Translations under genes and position numbers: made by a program | Shown here: one piece after another, positions 1 through 34,360 of the stretch | Layout of the letters: every line of letters begins with the position of its first letter | Numbering within the stretch: position 1 is the first letter of the stretch | Notes under the pieces: generated by a model | Databases searched by the model: none | Told to the model about the DNA's origin: nothing | What the model saw: only the letters and a program-made list of their open reading frames with translations | Assembly (NCBI GenBank): GCA_944323685.1 | Contig: CALUTJ010000025.1 | Span: 1-34,360, forward strand | Direction of reading: 5' to 3' | Source: Candidatus Gastranaerophilales bacterium | Lineage (GTDB): Bacteria > Cyanobacteriota > Vampirovibrionia > Gastranaerophilales > Gastranaerophilaceae | Length of the DNA stretch: 34,360 bases

Positions 1-115
1 TGTTCACATAGTGAAGCCATTTTTCAGGCTTCACCACAGTTCAGCCGAAAAAGAAGGCAAAGGTGAGCAGTGACGGTTCGAAGGCTCGAGGCGGCAACTG
101 CGACACTAGATTAGA
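1..115 (-). repeat. 177-bp dispersed repeat, copy 1 (partial, cut by window start)
   Basis: Read on the minus strand this copy starts TCTAATCTAGTGTCGCAG and matches copies 3 and 4 nearly base for base until the window edge. It includes the hairpin GTGAAGCC/GGCTTCAC (plus positions about 14-37). The TAA stop of the UvrA-like gene (111-113) lies inside the first bases of the repeat, so the gene runs directly into it. Confidence 0.9.
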
Positions 116-2585
116 AAATAAATTTTGCGGTTTTAGAATCACTGCAACTTTTCAGTCCGTCTAACGTTCCAGCAAAAATAATTTCTCCGCCTGCTTCTCC
201 GCCTTCAGGGCCCATATCTATTATATAATCGGCATTTTTTATAACATCGGTATCGTGTTCAATTACAATTACGGTAGCGCCGTTTTGTATTAACGTTTGA
301 AAAACCGTAAGCAGCGTTTGAACATCCAGAGGGTGCAGCCCGATTGTAGGTTCATCAAAAACAAAAACGGTATCAGACTGGGCTTTTCTCATTTCTCCAG
401 CAAGTTTCAATCTTTGAGCCTCACCGCCTGAAAGCCCCGGAGTTTGTTCGCCAAGCGTTAAATAACCTAAGCCGAGTTCCTGCAAGACTTTTAATCTTTG
501 ATGGACGGTTTTTAAATCTTTGCAAACCTCGGATGCGCTGTTAACATCCATTGCCATAAGCTCCGGCAGAGAATATGAATTATATTTTACGTTCCCCGCA
601 ATCCTTGCATATCTTGATCCCCCGCAATCGGGACAGGGGATTTCAACATCGGGTAAAAATTGTACATCTAAACTTATCACCCCTGTTCCGTCACATGCCG
701 GACAGCGTAATTTACCCGTATTGTATGAAAAATCACCGGATTTAAAGCCCAGTTCTTTTGCTTGAGAGGTTCTCGCAAATACTTTTCTTAATTCGTCATG
801 CACATTGGCGTATGTTGCAACCGTTGAACGGACATTTATACCGATAGGCGTTGCATCAATCAGCTTTACCTGTTTGATTCCGTCCGCTTCTATTTTCAAA
901 ACATGTTCCGGCAGCTTTTTATTTGAAGTTGCAGCTTCTAACGCAGGCACAAGACTTTCAAGAATCATTGTGGTTTTTCCGGAGCCGGATACTCCCGTGA
1001 CCACGGTTAATTTGCTTTTAGGAATATCAACTTCAAGCGGTTTTACCGTATGTATTGAGCCTGTAGACATATGAATTTTACCGTTATCGAACATATTGTC
1101 CGTATTAGCAGGAGTTCTGACCAAAACTTTATTTTTGCCTGAAAGAAAGCCTCCGATTAAAGAATTTTTATCTTTTTCAAGCTCTTTAATCGTTCCCTGT
1201 GCAATAACATTTCCGCCCTGTGCCCCTGCTTTTGGGCCCATTTCTACAACCCAGTCGGATTCCGACAAAATTTGCGTATCGTGATCAACCAGTACAACAG
1301 AATTTCCATCCGAGACCAAATCGTGTATAACCCCTTTTAAACCTTCTATGTTTGCGGGGTGAAGTCCGATTGAGGGTTCATCAAGAACATACAGCACTCC
1401 GGTTGTGCGGTTGCGCACAGCACGAGCAAGCTGCATACGCTGTCTTTCGCCGGTAGAAAGCGTTGAAGAAGCTCTATCCAGAGTTAAATATCCTAATCCC
1501 AAATCTATCAGTCTTTTGGCAGAGCTTTGAAAAGATTCGCAAATACTTATGGCCATAGGTTTCATTTTGTCGGGCAGGGAGTCCGGTACTTTGTCTACCC
1601 AACGGATAAGTTCTGATAATGTCATTTCGCAGGCTTTATCAAGAGAAATCCCCATTAATTTCGGTGCTCTTGCTGCTTCTGACAGTCTCGAGCCGCGGCA
1701 ATCCGGACAGATATCCTGTTTTAAGAATTTTTCCACTCTTTTCATACTCTTTTCGTCTTTGACCTTAGAAAGAGCATTTTCTACGGTATAGGTGGCGTTG
1801 TAGTATGTAAAATCCAGCTCTCCGGCAAGTTCCGAGTTTTTAGCTTTGTAGAATATATGCTTTTTCTCAGCCGGACCGTTATAGACTATATCTTTTTCTT
1901 TATCCGTTAAATCTTTAAACGGAATATTTGTTCTTACACCCATTGCTCTGCATACGTCCGTCATTAACGTCCACATTAAGGAATTCCACGGAGCAACCGC
2001 CCCCTCATCAATTGTTAAGGATTCATCCGGAATAAGCGTTGATTTATCGACAGTCCTTATTATGCCTGTCCCCTGACAGGTCGGGCATGCCCCCTGACTG
2101 TTAAAAGCAAGTTCCTCAGCAGACGGAGGATAAAAATGCTCGCCGCATACGGGGCATATAAGTTCCTGCTCGGCAGCAACCGCAAGAGTAGGTTCCAGAT
2201 AGTGGCCGTTCGGGCAGCGATGGTTTGCCAGTCTTGAAAACATAAGTCTTAAGCTGTTTAACAGTTCTGTGCCGGTACCGAAAGTGCTTCTTATACCGGG
2301 GACTGAGGGACGCTGATGCAAAGCCAGAGAAGCAGGAACATACAAAACCTCATCTACCTGAGCTTTTTGTGCCTGCGTCATTCTTCTTCTTGTATAAGTA
2401 GAGAGGGATTCAAGGTATCTTCTTGAACCTTCGGAATACAATACCCCGAGGGCAAGAGAAGATTTACCCGAGCCCGAAACGCCTGCTATGCCCACAATTT
2501 TATTAAGAGGAATATCAACGTCAATATTTTTTAAATTGTGAACCCTTGCTCCCCTTACTTTTATTTTATCAACAGTATTTGTCAT
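111..2585 (-). CDS. uvrA: UvrA-like ABC ATPase lacking the UvrB-binding domain (UvrA2-type)
   Basis: A DNA-binding twin ABC ATPase of the UvrA family, 824 aa, against roughly 940 aa for canonical excinuclease subunit A. Walker A motifs GVSGSGKS (about 35-42) and GVSGSGKT (532-539), signatures LSTGERQ and LSGGEAQ, and Walker B/D-loops DEPSIGLHP and DEPTIGLHP are all intact. Zinc module 1 (CPVC, 19 residues, CPTC) lies at 144-170, about 110 residues earlier than in E. coli UvrA. Zinc module 2 (CPAC, 19 residues, CPDC) is at 629-655. The missing stretch corresponds to the UvrB-interaction domain, so this is more likely a UvrA2-like paralogue (tolerance to DNA-binding compounds or an accessory repair role) than the main uvrA; that role is inference. 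The start ATG has AGGA about 11 nt upstream. The gene ends inside repeat copy 1. Confidence 0.9.
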   Translation of the reverse strand: MTNTVDKIKVRGARVHNLKNIDVDIPLNKIVGIAGVSGSGKSSLALGVLYSEGSRRYLESLSTYTRRRMTQAQKAQVDEVLYVPASLALHQRPSVPGIRSTFGTGTELLNSLRLMFSRLANHRCPNGHYLEPTLAVAAEQELICPVCGEHFYPPSAEELAFNSQGACPTCQGTGIIRTVDKSTLIPDESLTIDEGAVAPWNSLMWTLMTDVCRAMGVRTNIPFKDLTDKEKDIVYNGPAEKKHIFYKAKNSELAGELDFTYYNATYTVENALSKVKDEKSMKRVEKFLKQDICPDCRGSRLSEAARAPKLMGISLDKACEMTLSELIRWVDKVPDSLPDKMKPMAISICESFQSSAKRLIDLGLGYLTLDRASSTLSTGERQRMQLARAVRNRTTGVLYVLDEPSIGLHPANIEGLKGVIHDLVSDGNSVVLVDHDTQILSESDWVVEMGPKAGAQGGNVIAQGTIKELEKDKNSLIGGFLSGKNKVLVRTPANTDNMFDNGKIHMSTGSIHTVKPLEVDIPKSKLTVVTGVSGSGKTTMILESLVPALEAATSNKKLPEHVLKIEADGIKQVKLIDATPIGINVRSTVATYANVHDELRKVFARTSQAKELGFKSGDFSYNTGKLRCPACDGTGVISLDVQFLPDVEIPCPDCGGSRYARIAGNVKYNSYSLPELMAMDVNSASEVCKDLKTVHQRLKVLQELGLGYLTLGEQTPGLSGGEAQRLKLAGEMRKAQSDTVFVFDEPTIGLHPLDVQTLLTVFQTLIQNGATVIVIEHDTDVIKNADYIIDMGPEGGEAGGEIIFAGTLDGLKSCSDSKTAKFIF

Positions 2586-5384: not shown

Positions 5385-6683
5385 ATGGAAACAACAAAAA
5401 AGACAATAAAATCAATTATCTTAGCCGCCGGCAAAGGTACAAGAATGAAATCACAAACGCCTAAAGTTTTGCATAAAATTTTTAACAAAGAACTTTTAGG
5501 CTACGTAATAGACGCGGTAAACAATACAGGCAAAGCCGAAGAAAATTATATTATTGTAGGGCATTGCGCACAGCAGGTAGAAGATTACGTTACAAAAAAT
5601 TATACAAATGCAAAATGCCGTCTTCAATCACCGCAGCTGGGCACAGGCCATGCCGCAATGCAGGCTTATGAGGATTTAAAAGGCTTTGAGGGTGAAGTTT
5701 TAATATTAAACGGAGATATTCCTCTTTTAACCACGGAGACCTTAAATAAATTTATAGAAGAACACAGAAAAAACACCAACGCACTCACCGTTATGTCAGC
5801 AATACTTGATGACCCGACAAATTACGGACGAATAGTGAGAGATGAAAACGGAGATTTAAAAGCTATTGTAGAAGAAAAAGATGCGACAGAAGAGCAGAAA
5901 AAAATTAATGAAATTAATACGGGCGCATATTTACTTGACTGGCCAAAAGTTAATGAAGCTTTTTTAAGCTTTGATACAAACAATGCCCAGCACGAATACT
6001 ATTTGACAGACATTGTTAAATGGACTATAAACAAGGGACTTAAAGCACGCTCTTATATTCTTGAAAATAATGAGGAGTCTTTCGGAATAAACTCTAAAAA
6101 ACAGCTTGCAGAAGCTGCAAAAATTCTCAAAAACAGAGTTATAGACAAACTGTTAGATGAAGGAGTAACTGTTGTTGACCCTGATACAACCTATATTTCA
6201 CCGGAAACGCAAATTGAACCGGACACGATAATTTATCCCTGCACTTATATCGAAGGTAAAAACAAAATCGGAAGAGATTGCAAAATCGGCCCGTTTGCAC
6301 GTTTAAGAGGCGATGTTGAACTTGGTGACGGGGTAAAAATAGGCAACTTTGTTGAAATCAAAAAGACCAAAATCAAAGACCATACAAATGTCTGCCACCT
6401 GAGCTATGTCGGAGACAGCATGTTAGGCAGCAATGTTAACATAGGTGCCGGAACAATCACCGCAAACTACAACCACATTACCAAAGAAAAATTTAAAACC
6501 GTTATAGATGACAATGCTTCAACCGGCTCAAATTCAGTAATTGTTGCCCCTGCTCACATAGGCGAAAATGCATCAATAGGCGCGGGGTCTGTTATAAGCA
6601 AAGATATTGAAGCAAACGCACTGGGTTTAACCAGAGCACCTTTAAAAATATTAAAAGGCTGGTTTGACAGAATAAAAATCTAA
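5385..6683 (+). CDS. glmU: Bifunctional GlmU: GlcN-1-P acetyltransferase / GlcNAc-1-P uridylyltransferase
   Basis: Makes UDP-GlcNAc, precursor of peptidoglycan and lipopolysaccharide, in the cytoplasm. At 432 aa it is slightly shorter than the usual 450-460. The N-terminal uridylyltransferase begins IILAAGKGTRM (11-21) and has LNGDIPLL and the GTGHA motif. From about residue 255 a left-handed beta-helix of hexapeptide repeats follows, with CHLSYVGDS (catalytic His region) and GAGTITANYN. The start ATG has AGGA 8 nt upstream. The stop TAA (6681-6683) lies within the first bases of repeat copy 2, so the mRNA should carry the repeat in its 3' UTR up to the terminator at 6835. Confidence 0.97.
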   Translation: METTKKTIKSIILAAGKGTRMKSQTPKVLHKIFNKELLGYVIDAVNNTGKAEENYIIVGHCAQQVEDYVTKNYTNAKCRLQSPQLGTGHAAMQAYEDLKGFEGEVLILNGDIPLLTTETLNKFIEEHRKNTNALTVMSAILDDPTNYGRIVRDENGDLKAIVEEKDATEEQKKINEINTGAYLLDWPKVNEAFLSFDTNNAQHEYYLTDIVKWTINKGLKARSYILENNEESFGINSKKQLAEAAKILKNRVIDKLLDEGVTVVDPDTTYISPETQIEPDTIIYPCTYIEGKNKIGRDCKIGPFARLRGDVELGDGVKIGNFVEIKKTKIKDHTNVCHLSYVGDSMLGSNVNIGAGTITANYNHITKEKFKTVIDDNASTGSNSVIVAPAHIGENASIGAGSVISKDIEANALGLTRAPLKILKGWFDRIKI

Positions 6684-6803
6684 TCTAGTGTCGCAGTTGC
6701 CGCCTCGAGCCTTCGAGCCGTCACTGCTCTCCTTTTTTTCAATGGGACTCTCCAAAAATTCGTTCACGTCGCTTTGCTCCTTATCACGAATTTTTCCCGG
6801 ACA
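6679..6803 (+). repeat. 177-bp dispersed repeat, copy 2 (125 bp, internal deletion)
   Basis: It starts TCTAATCTAGTGTCGCAG at the glmU stop and ends GAATTTTTCCCGGACA, with both termini matching copies 3 and 4. About 52 bp of the middle, including the GTGAAGCC/GGCTTCAC hairpin, is missing. The perfect CTCGA-GCCT-TCGAG hairpin and the distal AAAATTCGT/ACGAATTTT hairpin are kept. This shows the element has separable modules. Confidence 0.9.
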
Positions 6804-11094: not shown

Positions 11095-11610
11095 TTATTG
11101 AACATAAGAGCAATAACCTTTTTCTATAAGGTGTTGGTTGAGGTTTACTCCGTTAACATAAAATTCTCCGACAAGGTTATTTCTTTCTCCATAGCCTTTA
11201 GCTATAAAAGAAATTTTCTTTCTGTACTGTCTAAACAGTGATTTTACATAGTCAGTTGCATTTGAATTTGTTTCCTTTGCCAACTTTGCCGGACGAAGAT
11301 AAGATACTCCGTTGAAATCACTGTTTTTGGCAGCCTGACTTAAGGTGCCTTTGAGCAGTTCGGTTTGCGAATATTCATGGCAATCCAGATTAGAAACATA
11401 TACAGTAGCAAGTGAATTATTGCCGCGGGGAAAGAAAAAACTTTCTGCTTGAGGGACTTCAAATATAATTTTGACCTGTAAGGCATTGTCCACTTTAAAT
11501 ATCCTAACAGGAATAGGTGTGCTCATCATGCTTTTACTTGCATATTTTATCGCAAAAGCAGGCATTGCTACTAACATACAGATACTTAATATAATCAAAT
11601 TCTTTTTCAT
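11095..11610 (-). CDS. Secreted SNase-like protein, paralogue 1 of 3
   Basis: 171 aa with a Sec signal peptide (MKKNLIILSICMLVAMPAFA, cleavage after AFA). The mature part resembles a thermonuclease/SNase OB-fold: PVRIFKVDNALQVKI in place of the DGDT strand, VYVSNLDCHEYS in place of the IDAPE motif, and GEFYVNGVNLNQHLIEKGYC matching the GEVYVxGxxVNxxLVxxGxA strand-helix. The active-site Arg expected before LVGE is Asn (ERNNLVGE) and DGDT is lost, so nuclease activity is doubtful. Two Cys (in DCHE and KGYC) are shared by all three paralogues and may form a disulfide. GAGGAAG precedes the ATG. Fold assignment is by pattern only. Confidence 0.7.
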   Translation of the reverse strand: MKKNLIILSICMLVAMPAFAIKYASKSMMSTPIPVRIFKVDNALQVKIIFEVPQAESFFFPRGNNSLATVYVSNLDCHEYSQTELLKGTLSQAAKNSDFNGVSYLRPAKLAKETNSNATDYVKSLFRQYRKKISFIAKGYGERNNLVGEFYVNGVNLNQHLIEKGYCSYVQ

Positions 11611-11655
11611 AAAACTTCCTCTATAATTTAATTTTAAACACGATAATTATAAAAT

Positions 11656-12156
11656 TTATTTAATGTAATCGCAATACCCTTTTTCTATAAGGTGTTGATT
11701 AAGGCTAACACCGTTAATATAAAACTCACCAACAAGATTATTCCTAATTCCGTAACCCTTCACAACAAGATAAATACTGTCAGGATATTGTTTAAACAGT
11801 TGTTTTACGTATTTTGTCGGCTCACTTTCTCTTTTTACGGAATAATTTGACGGCAGCAGATAAGAAGCACCGTTATAATCTCTCTTTTTAGCCACCTGTT
11901 TTTTTGTGCTTTTACGGAGAATAGTTTTTGAAAATTCATGACAATTTAAGTTCGAAACATAAACCGTTAACAATACCTTCCTGTACATCATCTCATCGTT
12001 ATTGAATTTCACCCTCATCTGCAAAGCATTTGAAACATCAAAGATATCAACCTTCACTGGTCTGTCAAAAACAAATGCATTATTTATTACCTTCAGGGCA
12101 AAAGCCGGTAGTGCGGTTATAAAACAAAAAGCCAAAACCAAAAAACTCTTTTTCAT
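11656..12156 (-). CDS. Secreted SNase-like protein, paralogue 2 of 3
   Basis: 166 aa, signal peptide ending PAFA. It is closest to paralogue 1: the C-terminal GVSLNQHLIEKGYCDYI and RNNLVGEFYINGV are nearly identical. The acidic motif reads LNCHEFS, with Asn replacing the Asp kept in the other two, which again suggests loss of catalytic metal binding. AAGGAG lies 6 nt before the ATG. It sits 45 nt upstream of paralogue 1 and 23 nt downstream of paralogue 3, consistent with tandem duplication inside one transcript. Confidence 0.7.
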   Translation of the reverse strand: MKKSFLVLAFCFITALPAFALKVINNAFVFDRPVKVDIFDVSNALQMRVKFNNDEMMYRKVLLTVYVSNLNCHEFSKTILRKSTKKQVAKKRDYNGASYLLPSNYSVKRESEPTKYVKQLFKQYPDSIYLVVKGYGIRNNLVGEFYINGVSLNQHLIEKGYCDYIK

Positions 12157-12179
12157 ATAAACTCCTTATAAAAACACAG

Positions 12180-12677
12180 TTATTGTATTGTTTGTTTAGG
12201 ATATTTTTTATCATTGTCGGAATCCGGCTTATTTTCAACACGTGTACAATACCCCTTTTCTATCAAATGTTCGCTAAGACTTACATCACCTATAAAAAAT
12301 TCTCCTACTAAATTGGCATATAAACCATAGCCGTTTGCTGCAAAATAAATGTCATCCGGATATTTTTCAAAGACAGATTGTACGTAATCAGTTACCTGAG
12401 TGCTCACTCTTTCAGCCAAACGGCTCGGCAAAACATAGGTAGCACCTCTTGAGCTGTTCAGGGTATAAGTTTTTGAATATTCGTGGCAATCAAGGTTCGA
12501 TACGTAGACAGGAGCACGCATTCTGTTTAATTCAACACGAACCTGCAATGCATCAAAAACTCTTTTGACTTCGACTTTTTCATGGGTTCCCCATTTGTAA
12601 GGGTTTATTTCTTTCATTGCGAACGCTGGAAGTGCAATAAAAGCCATAAAAGAAACCGCGAGCAGACATTTTTTCAT
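12180..12677 (-). CDS. Secreted SNase-like protein, paralogue 3 of 3
   Basis: 165 aa, signal peptide with a hydrophobic core starting MKKCLLAVSFMAFIALPAFA. The most divergent copy: it lacks a stretch between the two N-terminal strands, has YGLYANLVGEFFIG in place of RNNLVGEFY, and adds a charged tail after KGYC. I start it at 12677, where its ATG overlaps the miaB stop (TAATG); an in-frame ATG at 12704 would add nine residues in front of the signal peptide. GGAG is 11 nt upstream. Coupling to miaB suggests co-expression only, not shared function. Confidence 0.7.
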   Translation of the reverse strand: MKKCLLAVSFMAFIALPAFAMKEINPYKWGTHEKVEVKRVFDALQVRVELNRMRAPVYVSNLDCHEYSKTYTLNSSRGATYVLPSRLAERVSTQVTDYVQSVFEKYPDDIYFAANGYGLYANLVGEFFIGDVSLSEHLIEKGYCTRVENKPDSDNDKKYPKQTIQ

Positions 12678-14077
12678 TAATTTAATTCTCCGCGCAAATG
12701 CCATGTGCTGGCACCTGTAATTTTTACCTCAACAAACTCGCCGACAAGATTTTTATTACCTGCAAAATGCACGATTTTGTTATTTCTTGCACGGCCTGCC
12801 AGTATTATATTATTATCTTTTTCTTCGTATGATTCAACAAGAATTTCAAAAACTTTGCCGACACATTTTTGGTTTGATTTAAGGCACGCCTGTCTGTTTT
12901 TTTCGTTCAAACGTGCAAGTCTGTCTGATTTAGTATCCTCGTCTATAAATTTATCAGTCCATTTCGCCGCCTTAGTTTTTACCCTCGGAGAATAAGCTGC
13001 CGTATTTGAATAATCAAGCTCAAACTCGTCAATTGCACTGAGGGTATCTAAAAACTCTTCTTCAGTTTCTCCGGGGAAACCTGCAATAAAGTCTGAAGTT
13101 ATAGCAACATCTTCAAAAGTATTTCTGATTTTTTTTACAATTTCACCGTACTGCTGTCTGTCATAACGGCGGTTCATCTCTTTTAACACCTTTGAATTAC
13201 CTGACTGCATAGGTATATGGAAGAACTCACAGACCTTGTCACACTCTTTTACCGCTTTTATAAGGTCGTCAGAGATATCAGTCGGGTATGATGTAACAAA
13301 CCTTATACGGAATTTGCCGTCAATTTTGTTCAAATCCCTTAAAAGATTGGCAAGGGTGACATCTCTTCCGTCATAATCTTTATCAGGGTCTAATTTTTTA
13401 CCGTAGCTGTCAACATTTTGCCCGAGCAGTGTAATCTCTTTAAAGCCGTCTTCTTGAATTGCTTTTGCTGCTTCCGCGTATATTTCTGCCGGTTTTCGGC
13501 TTCTTTCCCTGCCTCTTGTAAAAGGAACAATACAATAAGTACAAAAATTATCGCAGCCTTCCATAATAGGAATCCAGGCATTCAAACTTTTGGCGCGTTT
13601 AATTTCGTATTTAGCTTCTTCTTCGCCATCAGTAAATTTTTTAGGAGTTTCATTTGTTGCGCAGACTCTCTCTCCGTTATTAATACGTTTAATAAGCTCG
13701 GGGAGTTCATAAACATTGTTGGTGCCGAACACTAAATCAACATAAGGAAATCTTTTCAGGAGTTTTTCTTTATCCTGCTGCGCCACACATCCGCAAAAAG
13801 CTATTTTTATATTTTTAAAAGGTTTGCCCTGCAATTCTTTCTGATGTTCTTCACTTTTTCTCTTGCCCCAGACTCCGACAAGACTGTATGCTTTGTCAGC
13901 TGACAACTGACGTATCGAACATGTGTTCACCATTAACAAATCAGCCTGCTTATCATCATCTGTTTGCTCATAACCGAAGTGAGAAAGCATTCCCAGTATT
14001 CTTTCGCTGTCGGACTTATTCATCTGACAGCCCATTGTTTCTATATAAACCTTTTTTGTAAAATTCTTGTTTTCCAT
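12677..14077 (-). CDS. miaB: tRNA-2-methylthio-N6-dimethylallyladenosine synthase
   Basis: A radical-SAM methylthiotransferase that adds the 2-methylthio group to (i6)A37 of tRNAs reading UNN codons. 466 aa in normal domain order: UPF0004 domain with cluster Cys in ETMGCQMN (17), NTCS (53) and CGCVAQ (97), radical-SAM motif CDNFCTYC (Cys 175, 179, 182), then a TRAM domain at the C-terminus (VEILVESYEE-like region to HLRGELN). MGCQMNKSDSE favours MiaB over RimO or MtaB. It heads a same-strand run with three SNase-like genes and dapA. Confidence 0.96.
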   Translation of the reverse strand: MENKNFTKKVYIETMGCQMNKSDSERILGMLSHFGYEQTDDDKQADLLMVNTCSIRQLSADKAYSLVGVWGKRKSEEHQKELQGKPFKNIKIAFCGCVAQQDKEKLLKRFPYVDLVFGTNNVYELPELIKRINNGERVCATNETPKKFTDGEEEAKYEIKRAKSLNAWIPIMEGCDNFCTYCIVPFTRGRERSRKPAEIYAEAAKAIQEDGFKEITLLGQNVDSYGKKLDPDKDYDGRDVTLANLLRDLNKIDGKFRIRFVTSYPTDISDDLIKAVKECDKVCEFFHIPMQSGNSKVLKEMNRRYDRQQYGEIVKKIRNTFEDVAITSDFIAGFPGETEEEFLDTLSAIDEFELDYSNTAAYSPRVKTKAAKWTDKFIDEDTKSDRLARLNEKNRQACLKSNQKCVGKVFEILVESYEEKDNNIILAGRARNNKIVHFAGNKNLVGEFVEVKITGASTWHLRGELN

Positions 14078-17414: not shown

Positions 17415-17591
17415 TGTCCGAGAAAAATTCGTGATAAGGCGCAAAACGACGTGAACGAATTTTTGGAGTGTCACATTGTTCACATAGTGAAGCCATTTTT
17501 CAGGCTTCACCACAGTTCAGCAGAAAAAGAAGGCAAAGGTGAGCAATGACGGCTCAAAGGCTCGAGGCGGCAACTGCGACACTAAATTAGA
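17415..17591 (-). repeat. 177-bp dispersed repeat, copy 3 (complete)
   Basis: On the minus strand it runs from TCTAATTTAGTGTCGCAG to GAATTTTTCTCGGACA. It is exactly the length of copy 4 and differs from it at only about eight positions. It begins 3 nt after the stop of the 46-codon ORF behind aroF and is the only terminator-like structure visible downstream of that operon. Confidence 0.95.
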
Positions 17592-17593
17592 TT

Positions 17594-17734
17594 CTATACG
17601 GCACGTTTTTGAGCGTGGTCTTCCTTCAATGCTTTTTCATACAAAACCGTTTTTAAAAGGCTGTCTTTTAAAATATCGTTAAGTTTCGTATTTTGAGCAA
17701 ATAATATTTCTTTTTTATCGGAATATTTTTTCAT
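17594..17734 (-). CDS. 46-aa ORF translationally coupled to aroF
   Basis: ATG at 17734 overlaps the aroF stop (TAATG). The peptide starts MKKYSDKKEILFAQNTKLND and ends AQKRAV; it is hydrophilic, Lys/Leu-rich and probably one or two amphipathic helices, with no Cys. The stop TAG is 3 nt from repeat copy 3. The tight TAATG junction resembles the miaB/SNase junction in this window and supports translation; function is unknown. It could also be a remnant of a longer gene cut short near the repeat. Confidence 0.5.
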   Translation of the reverse strand: MKKYSDKKEILFAQNTKLNDILKDSLLKTVLYEKALKEDHAQKRAV

Positions 17735-31595: not shown

Positions 31596-31772
31596 TCTAA
31601 TCTAGTGTCGCAGTTGCCGCCTCGAACCTTCAAGCCGTCACTGCTCACCTTTGCCTTCTTTTTCGGCTGAACTGTGGTGAAGCCTGAAAAATGGCTTCAC
31701 TATGTGAACAATGTGACACTCCAAAAATTCGTTCACGTCGCTTTGCTCCTTATCACGAATTTTTCTCGGACA
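31596..31772 (+). repeat. 177-bp dispersed repeat, copy 4 (complete)
   Basis: Runs from TCTAATCTAGTGTCGCAG to GAATTTTTCTCGGACA. Internal features: imperfect hairpin CTCGA-ACCT-TCAAG, perfect 8-bp hairpin GTGAAGCC/GGCTTCAC (loop TGAAAAAT), overlapping TTCAC-TAT-GTGAA, and distal hairpin AAAATTCGT/ACGAATTTT. AGTGTC at the start could pair with GACACT near the distal hairpin. It lies between the efflux promoter and the 3' end of the prepilin gene; unlike copies 1-3 it does not follow a convincing gene on its own strand. Confidence 0.95.
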
Positions 31773-31778
31773 TATTTA

Positions 31779-31872
31779 TCTAATCCGGTGCCCGAGTTGA
31801 GCCGTAACTGACTTCATTTAAAACGTTACCCCAAAATTTTGCTCATGTTAAATTGTTCCTTGTCAAAAAAGT
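31779..31872 (+). repeat. Decayed, shortened relative of the 177-bp repeat
   Basis: Six bases after copy 4, a second TCTAATC begins a stretch with three blocks in the same order as the repeat: TCTAATC..GTG.C..AGTTG, AGCCGT.ACTG, and CCAAAA.TT..TCA.GT....TTG.TCCTT.TCA. The central part is lost. Identity is partial, so this is a judgement by eye. Confidence 0.55.
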
Positions 31873-31905
31873 TAGCGCAACAACCTAATTTACGCCGGCA
31901 GCACT

Positions 31906-34284: not shown

Positions 34285-34360
34285 TGTCCGAGAAAAATTC
34301 GTGATAAGGAGCAAAGCGACGTGAACGAATTTTTGGAGTGATACATTGTTCACATAGTGA
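34285..34360 (-). repeat. 177-bp dispersed repeat, copy 5 (partial, cut by window end)
   Basis: On the plus strand it begins TGTCCGAGAAAAATTCGTG and continues to the window edge at TTCACATAGTGA. It matches copies 3 and 4 except TGATAC in place of TGTCAC. It lies upstream of glgC; the gene it would follow is outside the window. Confidence 0.9.

Follow-up and report, generated by a model that had tools for sequence, protein, structure and literature searches.

What kind of element is repeated several times in a 34,360-nt stretch of a Candidatus Gastranaerophilales genome (G000:C25:1-34360, the whole of which is referred to here as the window), and by what means does it spread? The five copies recognized in the initial annotation are all present at the positions listed in Table 1. 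The two complete copies are each 177 nt long, as described, and are ∼95% identical to each other, while the remaining three match portions of the 177-nt unit. One of these three, at 6679-6803, is not a truncated copy but a 125-nt version of a 122-nt form that lacks an internal module. The suspected decayed sixth copy was recovered with a covariance model of the element (24.2 bits, E = 1.2e-4). The element is gene-less and, as noted at the outset, carries no transposase. Two copies supply stop codons to neighboring genes: that of the GlmU-like gene at 5385-6683 comes from the 3′ end of the 6679-6803 copy, and that of the UvrA-like gene at 111-2585 (minus strand) comes from the copy at 1-115.

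Table 1. Copies of the element in the window and modules of one complete copy.
Feature	Coordinates	Strand	Remarks
Complete 177-nt element, A-B-C form	17415..17591	+	
Module A, left hairpin, element 1-56	17415..17470	+	TGTCCGAG plus stem AAAAATTCGT/ACGAATTTTT, loop GATAAGG..ACGTGA; pairs covary
Module B, 56-nt insert in inter-hairpin linker, element 65-120	17479..17534	+	Forms a hairpin itself
Module C, right hairpin plus constant 3′ end GACACTAGATTAGA, element 121-177	17535..17591	+	
Complete 177-nt element	31596..31772	-	Inserted immediately beyond the right end of an older copy, now decayed
Decayed family member, ends ..CACCGGATTAGAT	31775..31882	-	Adjoins the 31596-31772 copy; found with covariance model
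Short form, A-C without B, 125 nt	6679..6803	-	Basis includes empty-site orthologues
Element cut by contig end, B plus C part	1..115	+	
Element cut by contig end, A part plus start of B	34285..34360	+	

The genome (2.307 Mb in 44 contigs, 99.7% complete) contains at least 134 occurrences of the left-end pattern, 64 forward and 70 reverse, and none of a reversed control pattern; copies are thus not confined to the window. The repeat is indeed abundant, but the initial density of about one copy per 7 kb was inflated; averaged over the genome, these left ends occur about once every 17 kb. The inflation results from the assembly breaking in repeats, so that both ends of the window fall inside copies. 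The sequence surrounding the copies yielded 98 different complete ones. Of these, 65 have the 177-nt length and 22 the 122-nt length, and the remainder differ from these lengths by a few nucleotides; the best full copies are 95 to 97% identical. The GTDB genomes with exact matches are Candidatus Gastranaerophilales MAGs or carry no title more specific than "uncultured bacterium." Homologues, ranging from 108 to 310 nt, occur in 22/23 genomes of the genus and are patchy within the same family, where the covariance model finds the element in 35/191 genomes and 9/41 genera. A class-wide search with the model detected it in 54/382 genomes, every one of them inside this family; carriers occur in genera g1, g9, and g70, and genus g6 had no element among its many genomes listed in that search. 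A phage or viral origin was rejected because the phage collection contained no similar DNA and the viral contigs no exact motif.

The element is modular. Two hairpins (modules A and C) are bounded by constant outer sequences (5′ TGTYCGAG... and 3′ ...GACACTAGATTAGA); the 122-nt form consists of these two alone, and the 177-nt form carries module B between them. The weak similarity of the two ends reported initially (TGTCCGAG and TGTCGCAG) is present, but it belongs to the base of the two hairpins rather than to a classical terminal inverted repeat. In relatives, alternative modules occupy three sites (following the A stem, within the A loop, and within the C loop), and the place between the hairpins is taken by variants of B. 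At one orthologous locus (L093 versus L327), the short form is present in G006, and in G016 its apical loop AAAGC is replaced by a hairpin of ∼47 nt, with the adjoining 60-nt flanks almost identical. Separately, some of the elements found with the model (L213-L220) have the same left hairpin and another right half ending in GGAGAACTG(CTTTA), and a solitary, perfectly palindromic left hairpin is located at 1290-1340 of L214. The elements at the orthologous loci L104 and L065, from different species, occupy almost identical positions and differ in sequence type.

In this genome, module B deviates from the consensus at 0.33% of sites, ∼8-fold less than the 2.5 to 2.8% at those A and C sites that were not used for finding copies (Fisher p < 1e-15). 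Given the seemingly unconstrained decay of A and C, B appears to be younger than the copies that carry it, which it may have reached by in-place insertion or gene conversion, and we infer an active invasion of old copies. Alternatively, B could be immobile and the long copies ancestral, with B held uniform by purifying selection or homogenized by gene conversion. We take this alternative seriously while leaning against it: B is the most conserved part of the element, gene conversion is plausible among >100 copies, and long and short forms are nearly intermixed when judged by their A and C parts (p = 0.034), with 18 shared polymorphisms, but the A and C parts of the same copies show no constraint, other genomes contain relatives of B that are not accompanied by A and C, and a loop module has been gained or lost in place at the locus described above. 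A more ambitious two-tier scheme is doubtful. Here, an orphan folded-strand element, moved by a mechanism unlike that of known transposases, would be colonized by modules (B and at least three others) that replace its loops, parasites of parasites recognized by shape and not by sequence. Stand-alone B-like repeats (..GTGARGCCATTTTKCA..AAAAGAAGGCAAA) were also observed in L077, L078, L080, L082, L083, and L085-L087, often preceded by TTCACTATTTA; these probably represent a repeat family of their own.

Orthologous loci with and without the element were compared, as the initial annotation had proposed, and empty sites are present in relatives. The site in L042 is uninterrupted in G017, G008, G018, and others, where a stop codon leads straight to the next start codon. 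The site in L059 is uninterrupted in three relatives, in which an open reading frame runs through it, and removal of 123 nt from L059 restores the interrupted reading frame, of ∼400 aa. At both loci, the occupied site exceeds its empty orthologues by the element length plus 1 nt. No target duplication was seen at the empty-site comparisons beyond a possible 1 nt, and the bases flanking the two sides agree in 55/98 copies, versus 46 expected. The left flank reads WWAWWT, with A at position -4 in 95% of copies, and the right flank is AT-rich. The suggested likeness to MITEs holds for mobility and the lack of genes, but not for target duplication.

Insertions are predominantly intergenic. No more than 5 of ∼95 copies disrupt an open reading frame, and many lie 0 to 3 nt past a stop codon or provide a new one. 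Relative to the adjacent genes, 31 copies are codirectional with the plus strand and 17 are against it, while 20 lie between convergent and 21 between divergent genes. The proposal of a mobile 3′-UTR or terminator module was abandoned because divergent genes flank copies as often as convergent ones. An intron was likewise rejected, given the few interrupted reading frames and the lack of an Rfam match; neither a group I/II intron nor HEARO nor another known structured RNA was matched by an Rfam covariance model.

The predicted fold is conserved across lineages. The covariance model was built from a seed alignment of 11 short forms, in which 10 of the 27 pairs show two-sided changes. Among 75 homologues, 95.4% of the predicted stem cells at these 27 pairs are paired, two-sided changes affect 280 cells versus 80 in shuffles, and sliding the partners lowers pairing to 24 to 59%; because the alignment of these matches was fitted to the model, the figures lean towards it. 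Across homologues, G.U pairs far outnumber A.C (164 versus 11, or 32 versus 9 without four mostly-G.U pairs), which indicates that the plus strand is the folded one, bearing in mind that structure prediction used RNA energies and the plus strand, a procedure that favors G.U over A.C when choosing pairs. The G.U excess does not separate RNA from single-stranded DNA, and the tandem G.A mismatches and tolerance of G.U fit RNA at least as well, which counts against a DNA reading. The form in which the folded plus strand would spread is nevertheless more likely single-stranded DNA than RNA. The initial idea of an RNA element was thus partly right, in that one strand folds and covaries strongly. No gathering-level Rfam match was found in the window, and a search at E values up to 5 found nothing in L036 or L076 and, in L074, no more than leader-peptide, antisense, and CRISPR hits located beyond the elements, in keeping with the earlier remark that no described family was known.

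We consider it probable that these repeats are orphan, non-autonomous, gene-less elements that are mobilized while folded as one strand. The pair of adjacent hairpins, with its constant outer sequences, would spread as the folded plus strand; insertion would take place on the 3′ side of WWAWWT, an AT-rich site, and would cause no target duplication, with a net gain of the element length plus 1 nt. We infer that movement occurs in single-stranded form and that an enzyme acts in trans. Further hairpin modules, B and several others, would be tolerated in the loops and acquired there repeatedly, and some of these resemble second-order mobile elements. Against this reading, none of the enzymes tested tracks the element, no long autonomous version with a gene between the same ends was found in the stretches around copies, and copies show no orientation bias with respect to GC skew (p = 0.13), which lagging-strand single-strand transposition might give.

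One candidate for a trans-acting enzyme is a RAYT, and the check for one that had been suggested found a single intact RAYT in the genome (NF047646, E = 2e-42). A REP/REPIN-type element mobilized by this IS200-like Y1 transposase would explain the two hairpins, which resemble a REPIN, and the absence of target duplication. It is nonetheless unlikely, since Y1 does not follow the element: Y1 is present in 8/23 genomes of the genus versus 22/23 for the element, G006, 99% complete in 20 contigs, lacks Y1 despite its many copies, and outside the genus Y1 exceeds the cut-off in 3/17 genomes with the element and 1/6 without. Furthermore, the RAYTs of the genus adjoin GTTGGG..CCCAAC palindromes, a different REP, and neither a GTAG nor a CGTC tetranucleotide tag is present at the consensus ends. 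A role for RAYT as the mobilizer is therefore unsupported. The intact RAYT (L089, 63-620) is adjacent to one of the copies of the element; contig C11 contains two Y1 copies that resemble pseudogenes, 5.6 kb apart (L090/L091). RAYTs of the genus and family (L173, L174, L176, L178, L180, L181, and L189) adjoin REP-like GTTGGGC..GCCCAAC / TAGGTTGGGGTTTCTACCCCAAC palindromes, which make up another repeat system distinct from the element. Other candidate mobilizers were rejected because several or most of the carriers examined lack them: IS110 was found in 1/10 carriers, TnpB was not found over the cut-off in the carriers tested, and a reverse transcriptase (RVT_1) gave no match in 4/9 carriers tested (G018, G007, G160, and G196).

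Within this genome, the fold does not appear to be maintained copy by copy. In 87 copies, variation in the C module amounts to 2.9% in the stems and 2.8% in the loops, and the single changes comprise 25 to G.U, 20 to A.C, and 25 to other mismatches, with no two-sided repair. Stems and loops therefore decay alike within the genome while pairing is kept between lineages, which is most simply explained if the fold is needed for spreading and not by the host at each site; copies seem to decay freely after insertion. This bears on the view that the repeats are a dispersed, structured RNA of benefit to the host (a regulator, terminator, or processing site), with each copy under selection. The intergenic placement of copies and an excess of codirectional ones (31:17, p = 0.06) agree with such a role, as do five orthologous element pairs that looked better conserved between species than their flanks, suggesting constraint in place. 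These pairs came from best-scoring hits, a sample biased towards conserved copies, and purifying selection on this basis was set aside. With stems and loops of individual copies decaying equally, every gene arrangement occupied (divergent included), and empty sites in relatives where this genome is occupied, a host-beneficial RNA is very unlikely. An equally improbable option is a SINE-like mobile RNA copied to DNA by a reverse transcriptase in trans, for which strong covariation, G.U-rich pairs on one strand, and loops accepting extra hairpins might speak, but which is opposed by the four carriers without an RVT_1 match, the lack of both target duplication and a 3′ tail, and intergenic insertion in both orientations.

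Non-autonomous elements derived from IS200/IS605 cause no target duplication, have an AT-rich 5′ target and subterminal hairpins, and fold on one strand. The element described here shares these properties, but most carriers lack a cognate Y1 TnpA or TnpB, its target is loosely conserved, and 1 nt is added.

Other small repeats offer partial parallels. Like REPINs and the REP-BIME associated with RAYTs (PMC3116915, PMC3733652), the element is a gene-less, intergenic, high-copy pair of hairpins; unlike in REPINs, the hairpin sequences vary with pairing kept, and most carriers have no RAYT or have one beside another REP. CGTC-tagged REPs are 20- to 40-bp units that bear the CGTC tag and lack a dedicated transposase (PMC3733652). 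The present family is similarly palindromic and without a dedicated transposase, but spans 108 to 310 nt, with two different hairpins and nested modules. BOX of Streptococcus, in which tandem boxB arrays and end similarity to ISSpn2 have been reported (PMC3049150), shares a modular A-B-C plan with constant ends, an optional middle, and an uncertain mobilizer, as well as many intergenic copies in ∼2 Mb and an extensive predicted fold. The counterpart here of constant boxA and boxC around a variable boxB is an analogous architecture only, as single, different modules occupy several hairpin loops; covariation deep across genera and the lack of an IS partner found also set the element apart from the description of BOX. 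MITEs such as Correia and RUP (PMC3049150) are likewise short, intergenic, folded, and gene-less, but the present element has no target duplication, a short and imperfect terminal similarity, and no matching IS found. The family lacks the REP tag, the link to RAYT, and MITE-type duplication and has no Rfam match; it is best read as allied to small folded mobile repeats of the REPIN/BOX/MITE kind while a member of none.

Among open-licence papers, none relevant to Melainabacteria repeats was found, and an earlier description may exist elsewhere; within that literature, this large repeat family in uncultured gut relatives of cyanobacteria is apparently undescribed. The family provides unusually clear evidence that propagation selects a single-strand fold. 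It also fragments assemblies, with contigs ending in copies, and changes the 3′ ends of genes. Its copies form a natural data set on the movement of BOX, CGTC-REPs, and other gene-less hairpin elements for which no transposase is apparent, and on the jumping of loop modules between hairpins.

Two further observations concern the window and its copies. A rearranged copy in L040, consisting of A and 20 nt of B, continues into CTATACGGCACG, a motif also present just beyond the end of the window copy at 17591 (window 17592-17605). On the minus strand at 11095-12704, three diverged tandem genes encode similar secreted-type proteins of ∼170 aa (repeat families D1 and D3).
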